From assembly GCF_002305895.1 (NCBI RefSeq), contig NZ_CP022203.1, positions 5,124,501-5,188,500 on the forward strand: DNA of 64,000 bases, written 5' to 3'. Positions 39,317 through 55,237 of the stretch are shown piece by piece. Numbering within the stretch: position 1 is the first letter of the stretch; each line of letters starts with the position of its first letter. Source of the stretch: Corallococcus macrosporus DSM 14697. GTDB taxonomy: Bacteria; Myxococcota; Myxococcia; Myxococcales; Myxococcaceae. The notes beneath the pieces were generated by a model. That model searched no databases, was not told where the DNA came from, and saw only the letters and a program-made list of their open reading frames with translations. The translations under genes and the position numbers were made by a program.

Positions 39317-39925
39317 TCAGCGCGCGGCGCGACGGGCGAGGACGGCCTTCACGTCGTCGAGCGTGAGCCCCAGCGGCCGGACGGCGACGAGCACGTGGTA
39401 GAGCAGGTCCGCCGCCTCCTCCACGGCGCGCCGTGGATCCGCGTCCGCGCACGCCGTCACCAGCTCCGCGGCCTCCTCCCCCAGCTTCTTCAAGCGCAGG
39501 TTGCGGTCGTCCATCAGGCGGCGCGTGTAGCTCGGCGGTGCGTCACCGGACGGGGGCTCGGGCGCGGCGCGCCGCGCGAGCGTGTCATCCAACGCGGCCA
39601 GCGCGTCCCATCGCCCCGGGCCGAAGCAGGTCTCCTCCCCGGTGTGACACGCGGGGCCCGCCTTCTCCACGCGCGCGAGCACCGCGTCGCCGTCACAGTC
39701 CGCGCGGAGCGCCACCACGCGCTGCACGTTTCCGCTGGTGGCGCCCTTGTGCCACAAGCCGCGCGTGCGCGAACGGTAGTGCATCTCCCCCGTGGCCAGC
39801 GTGCGCTCCAACGCTTCACGGTCCGCGTGCGCCACCATCAGCACGTCACCGGTGCGCGCGTCCTGGGTGACCACCGTCACCATGCCGTTGCCCTTGGTGA
39901 AGTCGAGCGAGTCCAGGTCGAGCAT
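39317..39925 (-). CDS. hisI: phosphoribosyl-AMP cyclohydrolase / phosphoribosyl-ATP pyrophosphatase (HisIE)
   Basis: A 202-residue bifunctional enzyme for histidine steps 2 and 3. The HisI half (residues 1-115) shows [19 protein letters not shown] and the metal ligands in RADCDGDAV and CHTGEETCF. The HisE half (about 130-202) shows [14 protein letters not shown] and [12 protein letters not shown]. It is the last gene of the his operon. ATG 39925 overlaps the hisN stop by four bases (ATGA) and follows GGAGG. Confidence 0.96.
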
Positions 39926-40704
39926 CAGCGAGCCTCCACGGCGCCCAGCCGCTCCCGCACCACGCGAGCCAGCGCCGCGTTGGTGGCGATTCCGTTTCCT
40001 CCAAACGCGGTGCGCTTGCCGGTCCAGTCGGTGAACACGCCGCCGGCCTCCTCGATGATGGGCTGGAGGGCCGCCCCGTCCCAGGGCGACAGCAGCTCGT
40101 CCACCATGACCTCCGCGCGGCCGGTGGCCACCAGCAGGTAGCCGTAGCAATCCCCCCACGTCCGGTCCACGGCGGCGTCCCGCGCGAGCGCGCGCCAGGC
40201 GGCGCCTCGCTCCGGGTACACCGGGAAGCGTTCATCGGTGGACAGCACCACGGCCCGAGCCAGCTCCGCCTGCGTGGACACGCGCGTGGGTTGGTCATTC
40301 CAGAAGCAGCCCTGCCCCGGCGCCGCCACCAGCAGCTCGCCCACCGCGGGGAAGTACGCGGCCCCCACGAGGACGCGCTCGCCTTCCGCCAGCGCCACCA
40401 GCGTGCCCCACAGCGGGACGCCGCGGATGAACGTCTTCGTCCCGTCAATGGGGTCCAGAATCCAACGGCGCCTCGCGCCCGGGCGCGTCTCACCGAACTC
40501 CTCGCCCAGGATGCCGTCCTCCGGGAAGCGCGCCTCCAGCCATTCCCGCGCGCGCGACTCCGCCGTGCGGTCCGCCACCGTCACCGGGGAGCCGTCCGAC
40601 TTGGTGTCCACCGCGATGCCCGCGCGGAAGAAGCCCAGCGCCACGTCCCCCGCCGTCCGCGCCAGCTCGGCGGCGGCCTGCATCAGATTGCCCGCGTTCG
40701 TCAC
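39925..40704 (-). CDS. hisN: histidinol-phosphatase HisN (inositol monophosphatase family)
   Basis: A 259-residue magnesium phosphatase. It carries the IMPase signatures [17 protein letters not shown] and [17 protein letters not shown] and the N-terminal GEEFGE metal site. In isolation it could be an inositol or CysQ-type phosphatase. Its place inside the his operon, and the fact that the HisB here has only the dehydratase domain, make histidinol-phosphate the likely substrate. GTG 40704 overlaps hisF by four bases. Confidence 0.9.
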
Positions 40705-41465
40705 GTCACGCTCCGGATGTGAAGGCCGCTCTCGCGGAGCAGCGATTTGATGGCGCCCACCGTGGTGAGGCCGTCGTGCAGGATGCCCGCGACCAGCGCC
40801 GCGTCGGCGCCGCCCTCGTGGAACGCGTCGCGGACGTGCGCCGCGTCACCCGCCCCGCCCGAGGCGATGACGGGCACGTCCACCGCCTCCGAGACGGCCC
40901 GCGTCAGCGCCACGTCGTAGCCCCGGCGCGCGCCGTCCCGGTCGATGCTGGTGAGCAGCACCTCCCCCGCCCCTCGCGCCACGCACTCACGGGCCCAGGC
41001 CACCGCGTCCAGGTCCGTGGGCTTCCGGCCCCCGTGGGTGTAGACGCGCCAGCGGTCGCCGTCCCGCTTCGCGTCGATGCTGGCCACCACGCACTGCGCG
41101 CCGAAGCGCTCCGCGCAGGCGGTGAGCAAGGCCGGGTTGGCCACCGCCGCGGAGTTGATGCTCACCTTGTCCGCGCCCGCCCGCAGCGCCCGGCCCACGT
41201 CCTCCACGGTGCGCACGCCGCCGCCGACGGCCAGCGGGATGAAGAGCTGCTCCGCGGTGCGCCGCACCAGCTCCCACAAGGTGCCGCGCTCCTCGGCGCT
41301 GGCCGAGATGTCGAGGAACGTCACCTCATCCGCGCCCTCCGCCTCGTAGCGCCGGGCCAGCGCCACCGGGTCGCCCACGTCGCGGAGCCCCTCGAACTGG
41401 ACGCCCTTCACCACGCGCCCGCCCTTCACGTCCAGGCAGACGACGAGCCGCCGCGTGAGCATCAC
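40701..41465 (-). CDS. hisF: imidazole glycerol phosphate synthase cyclase subunit HisF
   Basis: A 254-residue TIM barrel that forms imidazole-glycerol phosphate and AICAR using ammonia from HisH. Motifs: RLVVCLDVKGGRVVKGV with the catalytic Asp, VGGGVRTVED, VVASIDAKRDGD, GEVLLTSIDRDG with the second catalytic Asp, and VPVIASGGAGD. It overlaps hisB by four bases (ATGA). Confidence 0.97.
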   Translation of the reverse strand: MMLTRRLVVCLDVKGGRVVKGVQFEGLRDVGDPVALARRYEAEGADEVTFLDISASAEERGTLWELVRRTAEQLFIPLAVGGGVRTVEDVGRALRAGADKVSINSAAVANPALLTACAERFGAQCVVASIDAKRDGDRWRVYTHGGRKPTDLDAVAWARECVARGAGEVLLTSIDRDGARRGYDVALTRAVSEAVDVPVIASGGAGDAAHVRDAFHEGGADAALVAGILHDGLTTVGAIKSLLRESGLHIRSVT

Positions 41466-41998
41466 TTCACCTCCAGGGCCACGGAGCCCTTCATGCTGAA
41501 CACCGAACCCGAGTCCACCATGGCGTCCCGCAGCGCCAGGCCCAGCGCCTTGAAGGCCGCCTCCGTCGCGTGGTGGCTGTCCTTTCCGCGCAGCACCCGC
41601 AGGTGCAGCGTCACGCGGGCGTGCTCGCAGAACGAGCGCATCCAGTGCTCGTAGAGCCGGTTCTTCAGCGGGCCCTGGTAGTAGAAGCGGCCGCCCGCAT
41701 CCAGGCAGGCCTGCACCAGCGCGTCGTCCATGGGGATGGTGCGCTCGGCGAAGCGCGCGGCCGTGGCCGGAATCACCCGCTGCACCGCGGTGCCCAGCGT
41801 AATCGCCACGTCCTCCATCACATGGTGCGTGAGGTCCCCTCGCGCGCGCAGCGTCAGGTCCAGCCCCGCGTAGCGCGCGAAGGTGGCCAGCATGTGGTCG
41901 AAGAACTTCAGCCCCGTGTCCACCTGCGTGGCGCCCTTGCCCGGCGTCACCTCCACGTGGACCTGCGTCTCCTTCGTCTCACGAATGACAGTGGTCAT
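41462..41998 (-). CDS. hisB: imidazoleglycerol-phosphate dehydratase HisB
   Basis: A 178-residue monofunctional dehydratase, without the N-terminal phosphatase domain of enteric HisB. Metal-binding His clusters are visible in FFDHMLATFARY, LTHHVMEDVAI and GKDSHHATEA. Unusually it lies downstream of hisH and hisA instead of between hisC and hisH. ATG 41998 overlaps hisA by four bases. Confidence 0.97.
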   Translation of the reverse strand: MTTVIRETKETQVHVEVTPGKGATQVDTGLKFFDHMLATFARYAGLDLTLRARGDLTHHVMEDVAITLGTAVQRVIPATAARFAERTIPMDDALVQACLDAGGRFYYQGPLKNRLYEHWMRSFCEHARVTLHLRVLRGKDSHHATEAAFKALGLALRDAMVDSGSVFSMKGSVALEVK

Positions 41999-42711
41999 CC
42001 CGCGAACTCCCGAGCGACTGCGCTCGCATCCAGTCTTCCGGTGTACAGCGCCATGCCAATGACGGCCCCGTAGGCCCCCGCCGCCGCCAGTGCCCTCAGG
42101 TCCTCCAACGTCGTCACGCCGCCGGAGGCGTACAGGCGGTGCCGGCTGGTGCTCGCCACCTCCCGCATCAGCGGCAGGTCCACGCCCGACAACTGCCCCT
42201 CCTTGTGGACGGCCGTCACCAGCAGGCCGCCCAGCGGCAGCGGCTCGAAGGCCGCCAGCACGTCCCGGATGTCGCGGCGGCTGCCTTCCGTCCAGCCGCG
42301 CGTCACCACCTCGCGCCCCTTCACGTCCGCGGCCACCACCACCCGGCCGGGATAGCGGCTCGCGACGTCCGCCAGCCAGGCGCCGTCCTCGATGGCGCGG
42401 GTGCCCACCACCGCGCACGCGGCCCCGCCCGACAAGACGGCCTCCACCCGGTCGGAGTCGCGCACGCCGCCGCCCACGGTGAAGGTGAGGCCCCGCTCGT
42501 AGGCGGTGAGCCGGAAGATGGCGTCCGCGTTGGAGCCCTTGCCCAGCGCCGCGTCCAGGTCCACGACGTGGAACGCGCTGAACCCGTGCGCGCGCCACTG
42601 CTTCAGCGCCTCCAGCGGATCATCCACGCGGACCCTCTCCGCCGCGTAGGAGCCGCCCACGAGCTGGACGCACGCGCCCTCGCGCAGGTCGATGGCGGGA
42701 ATCGCAATCAC
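41995..42711 (-). CDS. hisA: ProFAR isomerase HisA
   Basis: A 238-residue TIM barrel that isomerises ProFAR to PRFAR, homologous to HisF. Motifs: AIPAIDLREGACVQLVGG with the catalytic Asp, FHVVDLDAALG, VGGGVRDSDRV and YASGGVTTLEDL. GTG 42711 is preceded by GGAGG and overlaps hisH by four bases (GTGA); the longer open frame upstream lies inside hisH. Confidence 0.96.
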   Translation of the reverse strand: MIAIPAIDLREGACVQLVGGSYAAERVRVDDPLEALKQWRAHGFSAFHVVDLDAALGKGSNADAIFRLTAYERGLTFTVGGGVRDSDRVEAVLSGGAACAVVGTRAIEDGAWLADVASRYPGRVVVAADVKGREVVTRGWTEGSRRDIRDVLAAFEPLPLGGLLVTAVHKEGQLSGVDLPLMREVASTSRHRLYASGGVTTLEDLRALAAAGAYGAVIGMALYTGRLDASAVAREFAG

Positions 42712-43301
42712 GACGCCACCTCCTGGAGGAAGGCCTGGACGAAGCGCACGCCCACCGCGGAGGACTTCTCCGGGTGGAACTGCACGCCCACCACCCGGCC
42801 TCTGCGCACCGCCGCCGGGAAGCGGTCCTCCTCGTGCGTCGTCCACCCCGTCACCACCGAGGAATCCTCGGCGCGGCAGACGAAGCTGTGCGCGTAGTAC
42901 ACGGTGTCCAGCCGGGCGCCCGCCAACGTGCGGTCACCCTCCACCTGGTTCCAACCCATCTCCGGCACCCGCCTCGCCCCGAGCCGCGTCACCCGCCCCG
43001 CGAAGTACCCCAGGCCGGCGCCCTCGCCCTCGTCGCTGCCCTCAAAAAGCAACTGCATGCCCAGGCAGATGCCCAGGCACGCCAGGCCCCGCTCCAGCGC
43101 GGCGCGCATGGCCTCGCGTCCGGGCTCGAGCCGTGCCACCGCGGCCCCGAAGGCCCCCACGCCCGGAAGCACCAACACGTCGGTGTCCAGCGCGCGCAAG
43201 GGGTCCTCCTGCACGCGCACCTCCGCGCCCGGCGCCGTGGCCAGGGCCTTGACCAGGGAGTGGAGGTTGCCCGCGCCGTAGTCGAACAAGGTGACTCTCA
43301 T
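42708..43301 (-). CDS. hisH: imidazole glycerol phosphate synthase glutaminase subunit HisH
   Basis: A 197-residue class I glutamine amidotransferase that supplies ammonia to HisF. The nucleophile Cys is in LACLGICLGMQLLFEGSDEG, the catalytic His-Glu pair in VGVQFHPEKSS, and the start reads VTLFDYGAGNLHSL. It overlaps hisC by four bases. Confidence 0.97.
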   Translation of the reverse strand: MRVTLFDYGAGNLHSLVKALATAPGAEVRVQEDPLRALDTDVLVLPGVGAFGAAVARLEPGREAMRAALERGLACLGICLGMQLLFEGSDEGEGAGLGYFAGRVTRLGARRVPEMGWNQVEGDRTLAGARLDTVYYAHSFVCRAEDSSVVTGWTTHEEDRFPAAVRRGRVVGVQFHPEKSSAVGVRFVQAFLQEVAS

Positions 43302-44335
43302 CGCAATGCCTCCCTCAGCGCCGTCAGCGCTGTCTCCATCAAGGGCCAGGGCCCCACGCCGATTCGAAGCGCGTCCCCCACGCCCGTCAGCGCCTGGAAG
43401 GCCCGCACGTTCACGTCCCGCTCCCGCATCCGCTCCGCCACCGCCAGCGCGCCTGGCACTGGCACCATCAGGAAGTTGGCCGCCGAACGCAGCGGCGAGA
43501 GCCCCAGCGCCAGGAGCTCGCCACGCAGCCGCTCACGGCAGGCGACGGCCTCCTCGGCGCGGGCGCGCACCCAGTCCCCGTCCTCCGCCAGCACCGACAC
43601 GGCCACGGCCTCCCCGACGCTCGTCAGCTTGTAGGGCCCCCGCGCCTTCTCCACTTCCGCCACCAGCTCCGGCGCTCCGACGCCCCAGCCCACCCGCAAC
43701 CCCGCCAGCCCGAAGGCCTTGGAGAAGGTGCGGGTCACCAGCACGTTGGGCCGCGTTCGCCCCAGGTCGAGGAAGTCCATCCCCGGCGCGAAGTCCGCAT
43801 AGGCCTCGTCGATGATGACGATGCCCGCTGCGCCATCCACCACGCGCTCCACCGCCGGACGCGACAGCGCGGTGCCCGTGGGGTTGTTGGGCGAGCACAG
43901 GTAGATGACCCTGGCCTTCGTCGCGAGCAGCGCCTCCGCGTCCACGTCGAAGTCCGGCGTCAGCGGGACGGGCACCGCCCGGAGCCCGTTCACCTTCGCG
44001 AACAGCGGCACCATGACGAAGGTCGGGTCCTGGAAGGCCAGCGTGTCTCCAGGTTCCATGAAGGCGCGCAGCGCCGAGTCGATGACGTCATCGGAGCCGC
44101 ACCCCGTCGTCACCGACTCGGGCGGAACGCCGGCCCGCGTCGCGAGCGCGCGGCGCAGGTCCGGCGCGTAGCCCCGGGGGTAGCGCGACACGTCCTGCGC
44201 CGTCTCCCGCAGCACGCGCTGAGCCGAGGGCGGGACGCCATGGAGGTTCGTGTTGTCACTCAGGTCCACCCGGCACGGCCGCTTCGACGGCGCGTACAGC
44301 GGGATGTCCCGGTAGGAGGGCCGCCGGGGAATCAT
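43298..44335 (-). CDS. hisC: histidinol-phosphate aminotransferase HisC
   Basis: A 345-residue fold-type I PLP enzyme. Conserved blocks: LSDNTNLHGVPPSA, GCGSDDVID, LCSPNNPTGT, IIDEAYADFA, and the PLP Lys in TRTFSKAFGLAGLRVGW. ATG 44335 overlaps the hisD stop by four bases. A longer open frame upstream is only the antisense-like continuation inside hisD. Confidence 0.96.
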   Translation of the reverse strand: MIPRRPSYRDIPLYAPSKRPCRVDLSDNTNLHGVPPSAQRVLRETAQDVSRYPRGYAPDLRRALATRAGVPPESVTTGCGSDDVIDSALRAFMEPGDTLAFQDPTFVMVPLFAKVNGLRAVPVPLTPDFDVDAEALLATKARVIYLCSPNNPTGTALSRPAVERVVDGAAGIVIIDEAYADFAPGMDFLDLGRTRPNVLVTRTFSKAFGLAGLRVGWGVGAPELVAEVEKARGPYKLTSVGEAVAVSVLAEDGDWVRARAEEAVACRERLRGELLALGLSPLRSAANFLMVPVPGALAVAERMRERDVNVRAFQALTGVGDALRIGVGPWPLMETALTALREALR

Positions 44336-45642
44336 GTCCGCCCCCAGGCGCGCGCGGCGTCCGCGTGCGCGAAGAGCCCCTCGCTGTCCGCCAGGCGCCC
44401 CACGTCCTCCGCCAGCGACGCCGCGGCCGCCGGCGCCACGCGCTGGTAGGTGGTCCACCGGTAGAAGTCGAGCAGGTTGAGCCCCGAGTACGCCCGCGCC
44501 AGCCCCGCGGTGGGCAGCACGTGGTTGGAGCCCGTCATGTAGTCGCCAAAGGCCACCGACGAGCGCTCGCCCAGGAAGACGGTGCCCGCGTTGCGGACCC
44601 GCCGCAGGTCGTCCTGGGCGGACGCCGTGGCGATGAGCAGGTGCTCCGGCGCGAAGTCCGCGACGAAGGGCCACGCTTCTTCCAGGGACGCCACGGTCAA
44701 CACCGCGCCGCGCGAGCCCAGCGCCGAGGTGACGATCTCCCACCGCTTCGCGCGCTCGGCCTGTCGCTCCACCTCCTGGGCGATGGCGTCCGCCAGCGCG
44801 TCCCCCAGCGCCAGCGTCACACAGGCCGCCTCCGGGTCATGCTCCGCCTGGGCGAGCATCTCCCGCGCCACCGCGGCCGGATCCGCCGTGCCATCCGCCA
44901 CCACCAGGATTTCACTGGGGCCCGCGGGCGCCTCGATGGCCACCGCGCCCACCACCTGGAGCTTGGCCTCGGCCACGTAGGCGTTGCCCGGGCCCACGAT
45001 GCGGTCCACGCGGGGCACGCTCTCCGTGCCATGGGCCATGGCCGCCACCGCGCCCGCGCCGCCCAGGGCGAAGACGCGGTCCGCGCCCGCCAGGGACGCC
45101 GCCGCCAGCACGCTGGGGTGCGGCAACCCGTCCGGCCCCGGCGGCGAGCACACGATGACCTCCCCCACCCCAGCCACCTTCGCGGGCACCACGCCCATCA
45201 GCACGCTGCTGGGGTACACCGCGCGGCCTCCAGGTGCGTACACGCCCACGCGGCCCAAGGGGTCGGGCCGCCGCCCCACGAGCACGCCCGGCTCTGTCTC
45301 AACCTCCACCAACCGCGGCTTCTGCGGCGCGTGCGCCAGGGCGATGTTCCGCGCGGCCCGAGCCAGCGCCTCCCGCACGGCGGGCTCCAGCGCGGCGAGC
45401 GCCGCCGCACAGGCCTCCCTGGGCACCTCCAGCGCCTTCAGCTCCACGCGGTCGAACTGCCGCGCGAGGTCGAAGAGCGCCTTGTCCCCATCCGCGCGGA
45501 CCCGGGCGATGAGCTCGCGCACACGCAGCGCGACGCGCGCGTCGGAGCCACTGGCCCTATCCAACAGCCGCTGGCGGTCCTCCCGTGAGAGCCCGGACAG
45601 CGGACCGCGGTACCTCAACGTCGACGATGCGAGGAGCGCCAT
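44332..45642 (-). CDS. hisD: histidinol dehydrogenase HisD
   Basis: A 436-residue zinc enzyme performing the last two oxidations to histidine. The signature region IVGPGNAYVAEAKLQVVG and the segments GPSEILVVADGTADP, LAQAEHDPEA and FGDYMTGSNHVLPTAG, with Gln and His zinc ligands, are all present. ATG 45642 overlaps hisG by four bases. Confidence 0.97.
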   Translation of the reverse strand: MALLASSTLRYRGPLSGLSREDRQRLLDRASGSDARVALRVRELIARVRADGDKALFDLARQFDRVELKALEVPREACAAALAALEPAVREALARAARNIALAHAPQKPRLVEVETEPGVLVGRRPDPLGRVGVYAPGGRAVYPSSVLMGVVPAKVAGVGEVIVCSPPGPDGLPHPSVLAAASLAGADRVFALGGAGAVAAMAHGTESVPRVDRIVGPGNAYVAEAKLQVVGAVAIEAPAGPSEILVVADGTADPAAVAREMLAQAEHDPEAACVTLALGDALADAIAQEVERQAERAKRWEIVTSALGSRGAVLTVASLEEAWPFVADFAPEHLLIATASAQDDLRRVRNAGTVFLGERSSVAFGDYMTGSNHVLPTAGLARAYSGLNLLDFYRWTTYQRVAPAAAASLAEDVGRLADSEGLFAHADAARAWGRT

Positions 45643-46502
45643 CACGCCATCAACCTTTCGATGCGGGTGACGAGGATGCCCTCGCAGCCCAGGGCCTTCA
45701 GCGCGTTGATGGTGCGGTAGATGGTCTTCGCCGGCACCACCGCGTGCACCGCCACGAAGTCCCCGCCATCCAGCACGTCCACCACGGTGGGCCCATTGAG
45801 GCCCGGCAGGACTTCTCGCACGCGGATGAGCGCCTCCCTTGGCACGTTGGCCATCAGGTAGCGCTTGCCGCGCGCCGCCAGCACCGAGCCCAGGGCCTGC
45901 GTCAGCTCGTCCAGCTTCCGCTGCGCGTCCGCGGAGTTGCCCTTGCAGGCCACCAGCCGCGCGCTGGACTCCAGCACCGTGGCCACCTCGCGCAGGCCGT
46001 TCATCTTCAGCGTGGAGCCCGTGGACGTGAGGTCCACGACGATGTCCGCGATGCCCAGGTGCGGGGCGATCTCCGCCGCGCCCGACACCGGCACCACCGC
46101 CACCGGCTGCCCCCGCTTCGCGAAGTACTCCTGCGTGAGCCGGGGGAAGCAGGACGCCACCCGCATCCCGGCCTTCACCTCCGCTGGTGACGCGAGGCCG
46201 CTCTCCTCCCGCGCCGCCACCACCAGGCGGCACCTGCCGAACTCCAGGTCCATCAGCAGGTCCAGCTCGCGGCCGGCCTCGCACACCAGGTCCCATCCGG
46301 TGACGCCCGCGTGCGCGGCGCCGTCGGCCACGAACTCCGGGATGTCCTGGGCGCGGACGAAGATGGCTTCGAACTCGCCGCCCAGGGACGCGGTGAGCGC
46401 GCGCTCGCCCCGGGCGCGCACCTCCAGCCCCGCGTCATTGAACAGCTCCCGGACCTCGTCCGAGAGGCGGCCTTTGTTGGGCAGTGCAATCTTCAGCAGC
46501 AT
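45642..46502 (-). CDS. hisG: ATP phosphoribosyltransferase HisG (long form)
   Basis: A 286-residue enzyme that commits ATP and PRPP to histidine synthesis. It begins MLLKIALPNKGRLSDEV, and the PRPP loop is DIVVDLTSTGSTLKMNGL. The extra C-terminal ACT-like domain (about 215-286, NGPTVVDVLDGGDFVAVHAV) marks the long, histidine-inhibited form that needs no HisZ. It is the first gene of the operon, and a His-rich leader peptide and attenuator lie directly upstream. Confidence 0.97.
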   Translation of the reverse strand: MLLKIALPNKGRLSDEVRELFNDAGLEVRARGERALTASLGGEFEAIFVRAQDIPEFVADGAAHAGVTGWDLVCEAGRELDLLMDLEFGRCRLVVAAREESGLASPAEVKAGMRVASCFPRLTQEYFAKRGQPVAVVPVSGAAEIAPHLGIADIVVDLTSTGSTLKMNGLREVATVLESSARLVACKGNSADAQRKLDELTQALGSVLAARGKRYLMANVPREALIRVREVLPGLNGPTVVDVLDGGDFVAVHAVVPAKTIYRTINALKALGCEGILVTRIERLMA

Positions 46503-46546
46503 GGGAGGACCTTCGGGACAGCGAGGGGACAGACGGCGCGGAAACG

Positions 46547-46577
46547 AAAAAAGGCCCGTCCTGGGGGGACGGGCCTT
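46547..46577 (-). terminator. his operon attenuator (rho-independent terminator)
   Basis: On the minus strand AAGGCCCGTCC, loop CCCCA and GGACGGGCCTT are followed by a six-T run. The 11-bp stem is perfect. It lies between the leader-peptide stop (46611) and hisG (46502). Its 5' arm with flank (CGAAGGCCCGTC) can instead pair with GACGGG-A-CC-G-TTCG inside the leader peptide gene (46639-46652), a candidate antiterminator. Confidence 0.85.
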
Positions 46578-46610
46578 CGGTCGCTGCGGCAGGTGCCGAG
46601 GTGGGTGCGT

Positions 46611-46703
46611 CTAGCGTCTCACCCAGGCATGCGCATGGCGAACGGTCCCGTCGGGGCCGAGCCGATGATGCGCATGGTGATGGTGAAGGGACGCGAAGAG
46701 CAT
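46611..46703 (-). CDS. hisL: his operon leader peptide (His-rich)
   Basis: A 30-codon open frame reading MLFASLHHHHAHHRLGPDGT and then VRHAHAWVRR, with eight His codons, six of them in codons 7-13. It ends 34 bases before the terminator stem. This is the classical architecture of a ribosome-mediated attenuator. When His-tRNA is scarce the ribosome should stall in the HHHHAHH run, freeing the antiterminator segment at codons 18-22. No ribosome-binding site is visible before ATG 46703, and the predicted transcription start is almost at the ATG, so a leaderless start is possible. Confidence 0.85.
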   Translation of the reverse strand: MLFASLHHHHAHHRLGPDGTVRHAHAWVRR

Positions 46704-46710
46704 CGCAGCA

Positions 46711-46739
46711 TGAGTAGCGACAAAGCGCCCCGCCGTCAA
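46711..46739 (-). promoter_or_regulatory. candidate promoter of the his operon
   Basis: TTGACG (46739-46734) is followed 17 bases later by TACTCA (46716-46711) on the minus strand. The -35 match is strong and the -10 weak. Predicted start is near 46704, next to the leader-peptide ATG. Confidence 0.4.
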
Positions 46740-46803
46740 CCGGGCCCGGGGCGGGGCCCGCGCGGCGCTTGCAAACACCCGCGCGGGCGAGCAGGAAGCG
46801 CCC

Positions 46804-47922
46804 ATGCGAGTCTCGGACGTCATCATCGTGGGTGGGGGCATCATGGGCTGCGGCATCGCGCTGCGGCTGCGGCAGGCGGGGGTGCGCGTCACCGTGCTGG
46901 AGCGGTCCATCCCGGGCGCGGAGGCCTCCAGCGCGGCGGCGGGGATGCTGGCGCCCCAGATGGAGTCCGACGGCCCTGGCGCCTTCCTCGACCTGTGCCT
47001 GCGAAGCCGCGGCCTCTACCCCGCCTTCGCCGCCGAGCTGCGCGAGCTGTCCGGCGTGGACGTGGCCTACCGGCCCTGCGGCATCCTCAAGGTCGCCTTC
47101 GACGAGGCCGGCCTGCACCACCTGGACGCCACGGTGGCGTGGCAACGCGGACTGGGGCTCCGGGCGGAGCTGCTCGACGGCGCCTCGGCCCGGGCCCTGG
47201 AGCCCCGCCTCTCCGCGAAGGCCGTGGGCGCCGCCCACTTCCCGGATGATCACCAGTTGGACAACCGGCTCCTGGTGCGCGCGCTGACCATGGCCGCCGC
47301 CCGGGTGGGCGCGGAGTTCCGCACCGGCCATGTGCGCGGCGTCGCGCAGGAGGGCGGACGCGCGGTGGGCGTGGACCTGGACGGCGAGCTGCTTCGCGCC
47401 GACGCGGTGGTGGTGGCCGCGGGCTCCTGGTCCGCGATGGTCCACGGCGCGGGCGTGGAGGCCCGGGCGGTGCGGCCCGCGCGCGGGCAGATGGTTCAAT
47501 TCCAGACACGCCTGCCGCTGCTGGAGCGCGTCCTCGTGTCCGCGAAGGGCTACCTGGTCCCCCGCGCGGACGGGCGCGTCATCGCCGGCAGCACCATGGA
47601 GATGGTGGGCTTCGACAAGCAGGTGACGGCGGCGGGCCTGGCCCGCATCCTGGACATGGCCCTGGAGCTGTGCCCGGAGCTGGGTCCGGCCCCGGTGACG
47701 GAGACCTGGGCGGGCTTCCGCCCCTGGACGGAGGACCAGCGCCCCTACCTGGGCGAAGGCCCGGTGCCCGGCCTCTTCCTGGCCACGGGGCACTTCCGCA
47801 ACGGCATCCTCCTGGCGCCCATCACCGCGAAGCTCGTCACGCAGGCCGTGCTGGGTGAGCGCCCCACGGTGGACCTGGCCCCCTTCCGCTACGACCGCGC
47901 GCGGCCCCAACCCCGCGCCTGA
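46804..47922 (+). CDS. thiO: glycine oxidase ThiO (FAD-dependent)
   Basis: A 372-residue D-amino-acid-oxidase-fold enzyme that oxidises glycine to the imine used in thiazole synthesis. FAD motif VIIVGGGIMGCGIALRLRQ is at the N-terminus, followed by GAEASSAAAGMLAPQ, which is typical of ThiO. RPARGQMVQF and the C-terminal GHFRNGILLAPITAKL also fit. It stands alone, divergent from the his operon. ThiC lies 5 kb away, which supports the thiamine role. AGGA precedes ATG 46804. Confidence 0.9.
   Translation: MRVSDVIIVGGGIMGCGIALRLRQAGVRVTVLERSIPGAEASSAAAGMLAPQMESDGPGAFLDLCLRSRGLYPAFAAELRELSGVDVAYRPCGILKVAFDEAGLHHLDATVAWQRGLGLRAELLDGASARALEPRLSAKAVGAAHFPDDHQLDNRLLVRALTMAAARVGAEFRTGHVRGVAQEGGRAVGVDLDGELLRADAVVVAAGSWSAMVHGAGVEARAVRPARGQMVQFQTRLPLLERVLVSAKGYLVPRADGRVIAGSTMEMVGFDKQVTAAGLARILDMALELCPELGPAPVTETWAGFRPWTEDQRPYLGEGPVPGLFLATGHFRNGILLAPITAKLVTQAVLGERPTVDLAPFRYDRARPQPRA

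Positions 47923-51096: not shown

Positions 51097-55237
<4,141 letters not shown>

Follow-up and report, generated by a model that had tools for sequence, protein, structure and literature searches.

The histidine operon of Corallococcus macrosporus DSM 14697 is very probably governed by a ribosome-mediated transcription attenuator whose leader peptide is translated from a leaderless mRNA. The element was analyzed within a window of 64,000 nucleotides (the whole stretch of DNA under study), and the coordinates of its parts are provided in Table 1.

From the open reading frame, the promoter spacing, the conserved competing structures, and the operon, all of which were read from sequence and comparison, we infer where transcription starts, that the leader is translated, that the ribosome stalls, and how the system responds to histidine, as follows. 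RNA polymerase would start at or next to the leader ATG, and a ribosome would load on the 5' end at once. When charged tRNA-His is scarce, the ribosome would stall at codons 7-13, thereby blocking the 1:2 hairpin and freeing region 2 to pair with region 3 as the antiterminator; the terminator would then not form, and transcription would proceed from hisG onwards. When histidine is plentiful, the ribosome would move over region 2, the 3:4 terminator would fold, and transcription would stop before hisG. In the absence of a ribosome, 1:2 would form and termination would ensue as well.

Table 1. Features of the predicted histidine attenuator and its operon (window positions).
Feature	Position	Strand	Basis and details
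-35 element TTGACG of the leader promoter	46734..46739	-	Sequence; first T 36 nt ahead of the leader start codon
-10 element TACTCA	46711..46716	-	Sequence; 17-nt spacer, 7 nt to ATG
Leader peptide ORF	46611..46703	-	Translation; 30 codons plus TAG; MLFASLHHHHAHHRLGPDGTVRHAHAWVRR; HHHHAHH at codons 7-13
1:2 (anti-antiterminator) hairpin, His codons with HAHAWV-coding segment	46618..46687	-	Minimum free energy fold of the leader; -33.7 kcal/mol alone
2:3 antiterminator	46568..46652	-	-39.8 kcal/mol for 46652-46565
3:4 intrinsic terminator hairpin, GAAGGCCCGTCC-CCCCA-GGACGGGCCTTT	46550..46578	-	Terminator scan; -22.7 kcal/mol
Terminator U run	46547..46552	-	Sequence
hisG, first gene of the operon	45642..46502	-	TIGR00070, 211 bits, above cut-off
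hisD, hisC, hisH, hisA, hisB, hisF, hisN, hisIE (after hisG)	39317..45641	-	NCBIfam matches of ORFs in 39317-46296; start positions approximate

The histidine operon and the leader promoter

As judged from NCBIfam profile matches, the genes downstream of the leader constitute a his operon on one strand with hisG leading. A gene encoding a ThiO-like glycine oxidase (46804-47922, plus strand) is divergent from the leader, and the his promoter lies inside the gap of ~100 nt between the two. Elsewhere in the window, a TPP riboswitch (53021-53128, minus strand; RF00059, 70.9 bits) is positioned in the upstream part of a long open reading frame, 51097-54093, the later part of which looks like thiC. 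A pattern search of the genome for His leaders returned the present site and one other match, in which no leader was recognised when the match was simply read through. In a simple scan, no Trp, branched-chain, or His leaders were found near the trpE, ilvB, and hisS homologues of the same genome.

The -10 hexamer of the leader promoter is poor, and a strict sigma-70 consensus scan did not report the promoter because TACTCA is without the final T. By promoter geometry, the predicted transcription start is at or adjoining 46703. Among 85 non-redundant leaders, which are not phylogenetically independent, a strict TTGAC is located 33-41 nt ahead of the start codon in 73, from three phyla, and in 67 when the start was chosen without the promoter. 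As controls, 1411 other start-like codons from these sequences gave 3 such cases, and 55 hisG starts gave none. When promoter distance was used to pick the in-frame start, 81/85 leaders had a -35 element resembling TTGAC or TTGC whose first base lies 34-40 nt ahead of that start. The most frequent geometry consists of a spacer of 17 and a gap of 7 nt to the codon, and thus +1 falls on the start codon. SD-like motifs accompany only two of the 85 leader starts versus 8/32 hisG starts. Given the TTGAC spacing in the leaders versus that in the background and at hisG, the leader mRNA is apparently leaderless, with its predicted start at the first codon of the peptide. The preliminary description, made from the letters of this DNA alone, had suggested such a start, and comparative promoter spacing now backs it strongly.

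It is improbable that the same attenuator is preceded by an ordinary 5' UTR, with transcription starting further upstream and the TTGACG spacing being misleading. The negative strict scan would suit such an arrangement, as would one Spirochaetota His leader (L030), an apparently leadered exception that carries an AAGGAG motif and has its TTGAC at -74. Against it stand the -33 to -41 spacing shared by leaders of three phyla and the near absence of SD-like motifs at their starts.

The leader peptide and the competing RNA structures

The 30-codon frame with eight His codons, HHHHAHH included, had been noted at the outset, and translation confirms it. When the 301-nt region was shuffled 20,000 times, six His in seven codons never arose. 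In an alignment of 62 distinct leaders, the minority letters in His codons 7-10 number 75 at position 3 versus 1 at position 1 and 20 at position 2; the position-2 changes mostly convert His to Pro. The lengths of the leader ORFs in this set differ by multiples of three. Such third-position variation, combined with multiple-of-three lengths, points at the sequence level to a His run that is translated rather than to conserved DNA. Note that in one metagenome-assembled Archangium leader a one-base deletion shifts the frame after HHHHAHH and leaves the His run intact; this is either a sequencing error or a tolerated change.

The preliminary description had further identified an 11-bp terminator with a U run and a segment, GACGGG-A-CC-G-UUCG, able to pair with the 5' arm of that terminator. 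Both features were recovered: the terminator stem is composed of 12 pairs (11 Watson-Crick and one G-U), and the segment (46652-46639) pairs with CGAAGGCCCGUC (46579-46568) at -16.8 kcal/mol. Two points had been missed: the His codons themselves give rise to a competing hairpin (1:2), and GACGGG is just the base of an antiterminator of ~85 nt. The latter is formed by the pairing of GACGGGACC...UGCGCAUGCC...GGGUG with CACCC...GGCA...CGCA..GGCCCGUC, which accounts for the conserved CACCCA..GGCA..TGCCGCAG stretch located 3' of the stop codon. Folding of the whole leader yields z = -5.15 relative to shuffles. The terminator is paired in every aligned relative, with two pairs changed on both sides. 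The antiterminator core is invariant within the Myxococcaceae, such that conservation there says little, and in the covariation test for this family the 1:2 and 2:3 pairings display a small excess over shuffles.

The dependence of these structures on the ribosome was modeled by placing a ribosome codon by codon on the leader, with footprints of 12, 14, and 16 nt, and computing the sequestration of region 3. Sequestration peaks at ~0.73 while the A site lies within codons 7-13. It falls to nearly 0 around codon 16, a position from which the ribosome covers GACGGG, and amounts to about 0.3-0.4 both at the stop codon and in the absence of a ribosome. The choice of footprint has little effect on the profile. 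Upon refolding of the nascent RNA, the 2:3 antiterminator forms once the ribosome front covers leader nt 30-51. In the model, the permissive ribosome window coincides with HHHHAHH, and the antiterminator is mutually exclusive with the terminator, its formation depending on where the ribosome stands.

For 29 Myxococcaceae-type leaders, the mean sequestration is 0.38 with no ribosome, 0.64 with the ribosome at the His codons, and 0.34 at the stop. In the Gemmatimonadota, region 3 is sequestered without a ribosome almost as much as on stalling, and hence a 1:2 arm is not evident there. Once region 4 has been made, the terminator reaches 0.97-0.98 at equilibrium in every ribosome state. The switch must consequently act kinetically, during transcription, as attenuators usually do.

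Conservation in relatives and history of the operon

His-rich leaders, together with terminators, are present at 71/71 Myxococcaceae hisG loci with a HisG of the present type. They also precede hisG in the Gemmatimonadota (24/30 and 31/50, or 55/80 sampled loci), in three distant Myxococcota lineages (L107, L108, and L111), and in four Spirochaetota records (L029-L032), some of the calls outside the Myxococcaceae being weak, for example L214. The leader is absent from the other sampled Spirochaetota hisG loci and from several Gemmatimonadota loci in which hisG follows closely after another ORF. The terminator search used here located a terminator in 83 of the 85 non-redundant leaders. The preliminary description had proposed looking for the His run and the stem pairing in relatives, and both are kept there. 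One record labelled Comamonas sp. KCTC 72670 (L003) contains a Myxococcus-type hisG, 93% identical, along with the leader, and is probably a mislabelled assembly.

Covariation inside the Myxococcaceae was too weak to decide on the pairing, and thus a cross-species test was employed in which every leader segment was scored against every terminator arm. Pairing is better between a leader segment and the terminator arm of its own locus than across species (permutation test, p = 5e-5). Co-change of segment and arm is exemplified by L206, L210, L223, L111, and L108; the own-arm preference is absent in some divergent loci (L098, L099, L129, and L217). Single-sequence pairing tests with per-species shuffles, which are underpowered in GC-rich DNA, reached p<=0.05 in 20/83. 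The mutual exclusivity of the structures, as originally proposed, is thus upheld in silico by both the ribosome-position folding and the own-arm test. Five Gemmatimonadota loci (L233, L234, L236, L237, and L238) have a different terminator arm (CGCCGGC...) and His leaders with leaderless spacing before hisG; they perhaps represent a second lineage of the switch.

These comparisons also bear on the role of the peptide. The strong conservation of the peptide within the Myxococcaceae would be in keeping with a functional small protein, metal-binding for instance, with a terminator that merely trims transcription, but this is very unlikely: the residues outside the His run differ widely between lineages and track the need for RNA pairing, the leader is always upstream of hisG with the terminator in between, and the pairing co-evolves. 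A chance ORF ahead of an ordinary terminator with no regulation, of a kind abundant in GC-rich DNA, can be dismissed in light of the shuffles, the retention of the leader at every family locus, and the synonymous third-position change. Attenuation by a translating ribosome is, accordingly, the reading preferred here.

Among 66 HisG proteins placed in a tree, those of the Myxococcaceae and relatives are nested inside the Gemmatimonadota, apart from other Myxococcota HisG, and the joint clade has a support of 99/96. Leaders of the Myxococcaceae and Gemmatimonadota share the peptide pattern HHHAHH..GP(D/T/S)G and the arm GGCCCGTC. Taken together, the tree, the shared pattern, and the shared arm suggest that the his operon and its attenuator moved jointly between phyla. 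The Myxococcaceae may have received both from a Gemmatimonadota-like donor, the direction and the donor being inferred. An independent invention of the leader in myxobacteria was also considered, and the HisG tree argues against it.

The evidence is evenly poised, in our estimation, on a broader proposal: that the leaders form a class of His attenuator of their own, leaderless since ancient times, rooted in the Gemmatimonadota and passed with the operon to the Myxococcaceae. Transcription starting at the start codon would then be part of the mechanism, with the first ribosome and RNA polymerase coupled already at nucleotide 1, and similar leaders would have arisen or persisted in other Myxococcota and in the Spirochaetota.

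Comparison with known systems

The leader is matched by no Rfam model. Rfam family RF00514 (His_leader) has no match in the window at the gathering threshold or in 46450-46850 at E<=10. No T-box riboswitch was matched either; the window yields TPP only at gathering, and 46450-46850 yields none at E<=10. Three leader peptides matched 0 families in Pfam and NCBIfam, peptides so short being hard for profile HMMs. A search of the openly readable literature returned no report of a His attenuator for the Myxococcota or Gemmatimonadota. In the accessible portions of the literature, His attenuators are described from gammaproteobacteria and some Firmicutes (PMC9413887, PMC4833913, PMC2965389). The preliminary description had offered the present one as perhaps independently evolved or little-described; the second term is in accord with these reports and with the missing RF00514 match, whereas the first is at odds with the Gemmatimonadota-like donor suggested by the HisG tree. 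A comparative study of histidine operons in Actinobacteria revealed no conserved upstream RNA structure (PMC1262725), and a broad Rfam survey suggested that amino-acid attenuator motifs are possibly gammaproteobacterial in origin with very few transfers (PMC3766115).

Here a His attenuator is predicted at the majority of hisG loci sampled from one phylum and at all same-type loci of a family in another; RNA libraries have missed it because it pairs through a different sequence. It also looks like an instance in which an operon and its RNA switch crossed from one phylum to another together. The near-fixed distance from promoter to start codon makes it testable whether leaderless initiation contributes functionally to attenuation by tying the ribosome to the polymerase as soon as the first nucleotide is made.

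Leaderless leader peptides are known from other amino-acid operons. The transcripts of trpL in Sinorhizobium meliloti (PMC7298713) and of the trp, leu, and ilv leaders, among several in Streptomyces, of Streptomyces lividans (PMC8079986) likewise begin at the start codon of the leader peptide in an attenuator of amino-acid genes. They differ in being Trp, Leu, or branched-chain leaders of other phyla, and no His version appears in the available text of these papers. The His attenuators of the Bacillus cereus group, the C. difficile group, and Erysipelotrichales also combine a short His-codon peptide with a terminator and an antiterminator before his genes (PMC9413887; hisS/hisZ leaders, PMC2965389). 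They belong to other lineages and contain three to five consecutive His codons, and the accessible parts of these sources make no mention of leaderlessness.

The hisL leader of E. coli and Salmonella (RF00514) similarly has a series of His codons in a peptide encoded ahead of the his operon, with a competing terminator and antiterminator (PMC9413887, PMC3896937). In contrast to hisL, the leader described here is predicted to be leaderless, splits its His codons as HHHHAHH, employs an unrelated pairing sequence without a match to RF00514, and resides in a host outside the gammaproteobacteria. Judged from its sequence, the present attenuator is best called a leaderless variant that lies outside RF00514 and that, on paper, works like the His attenuator of E. 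coli.
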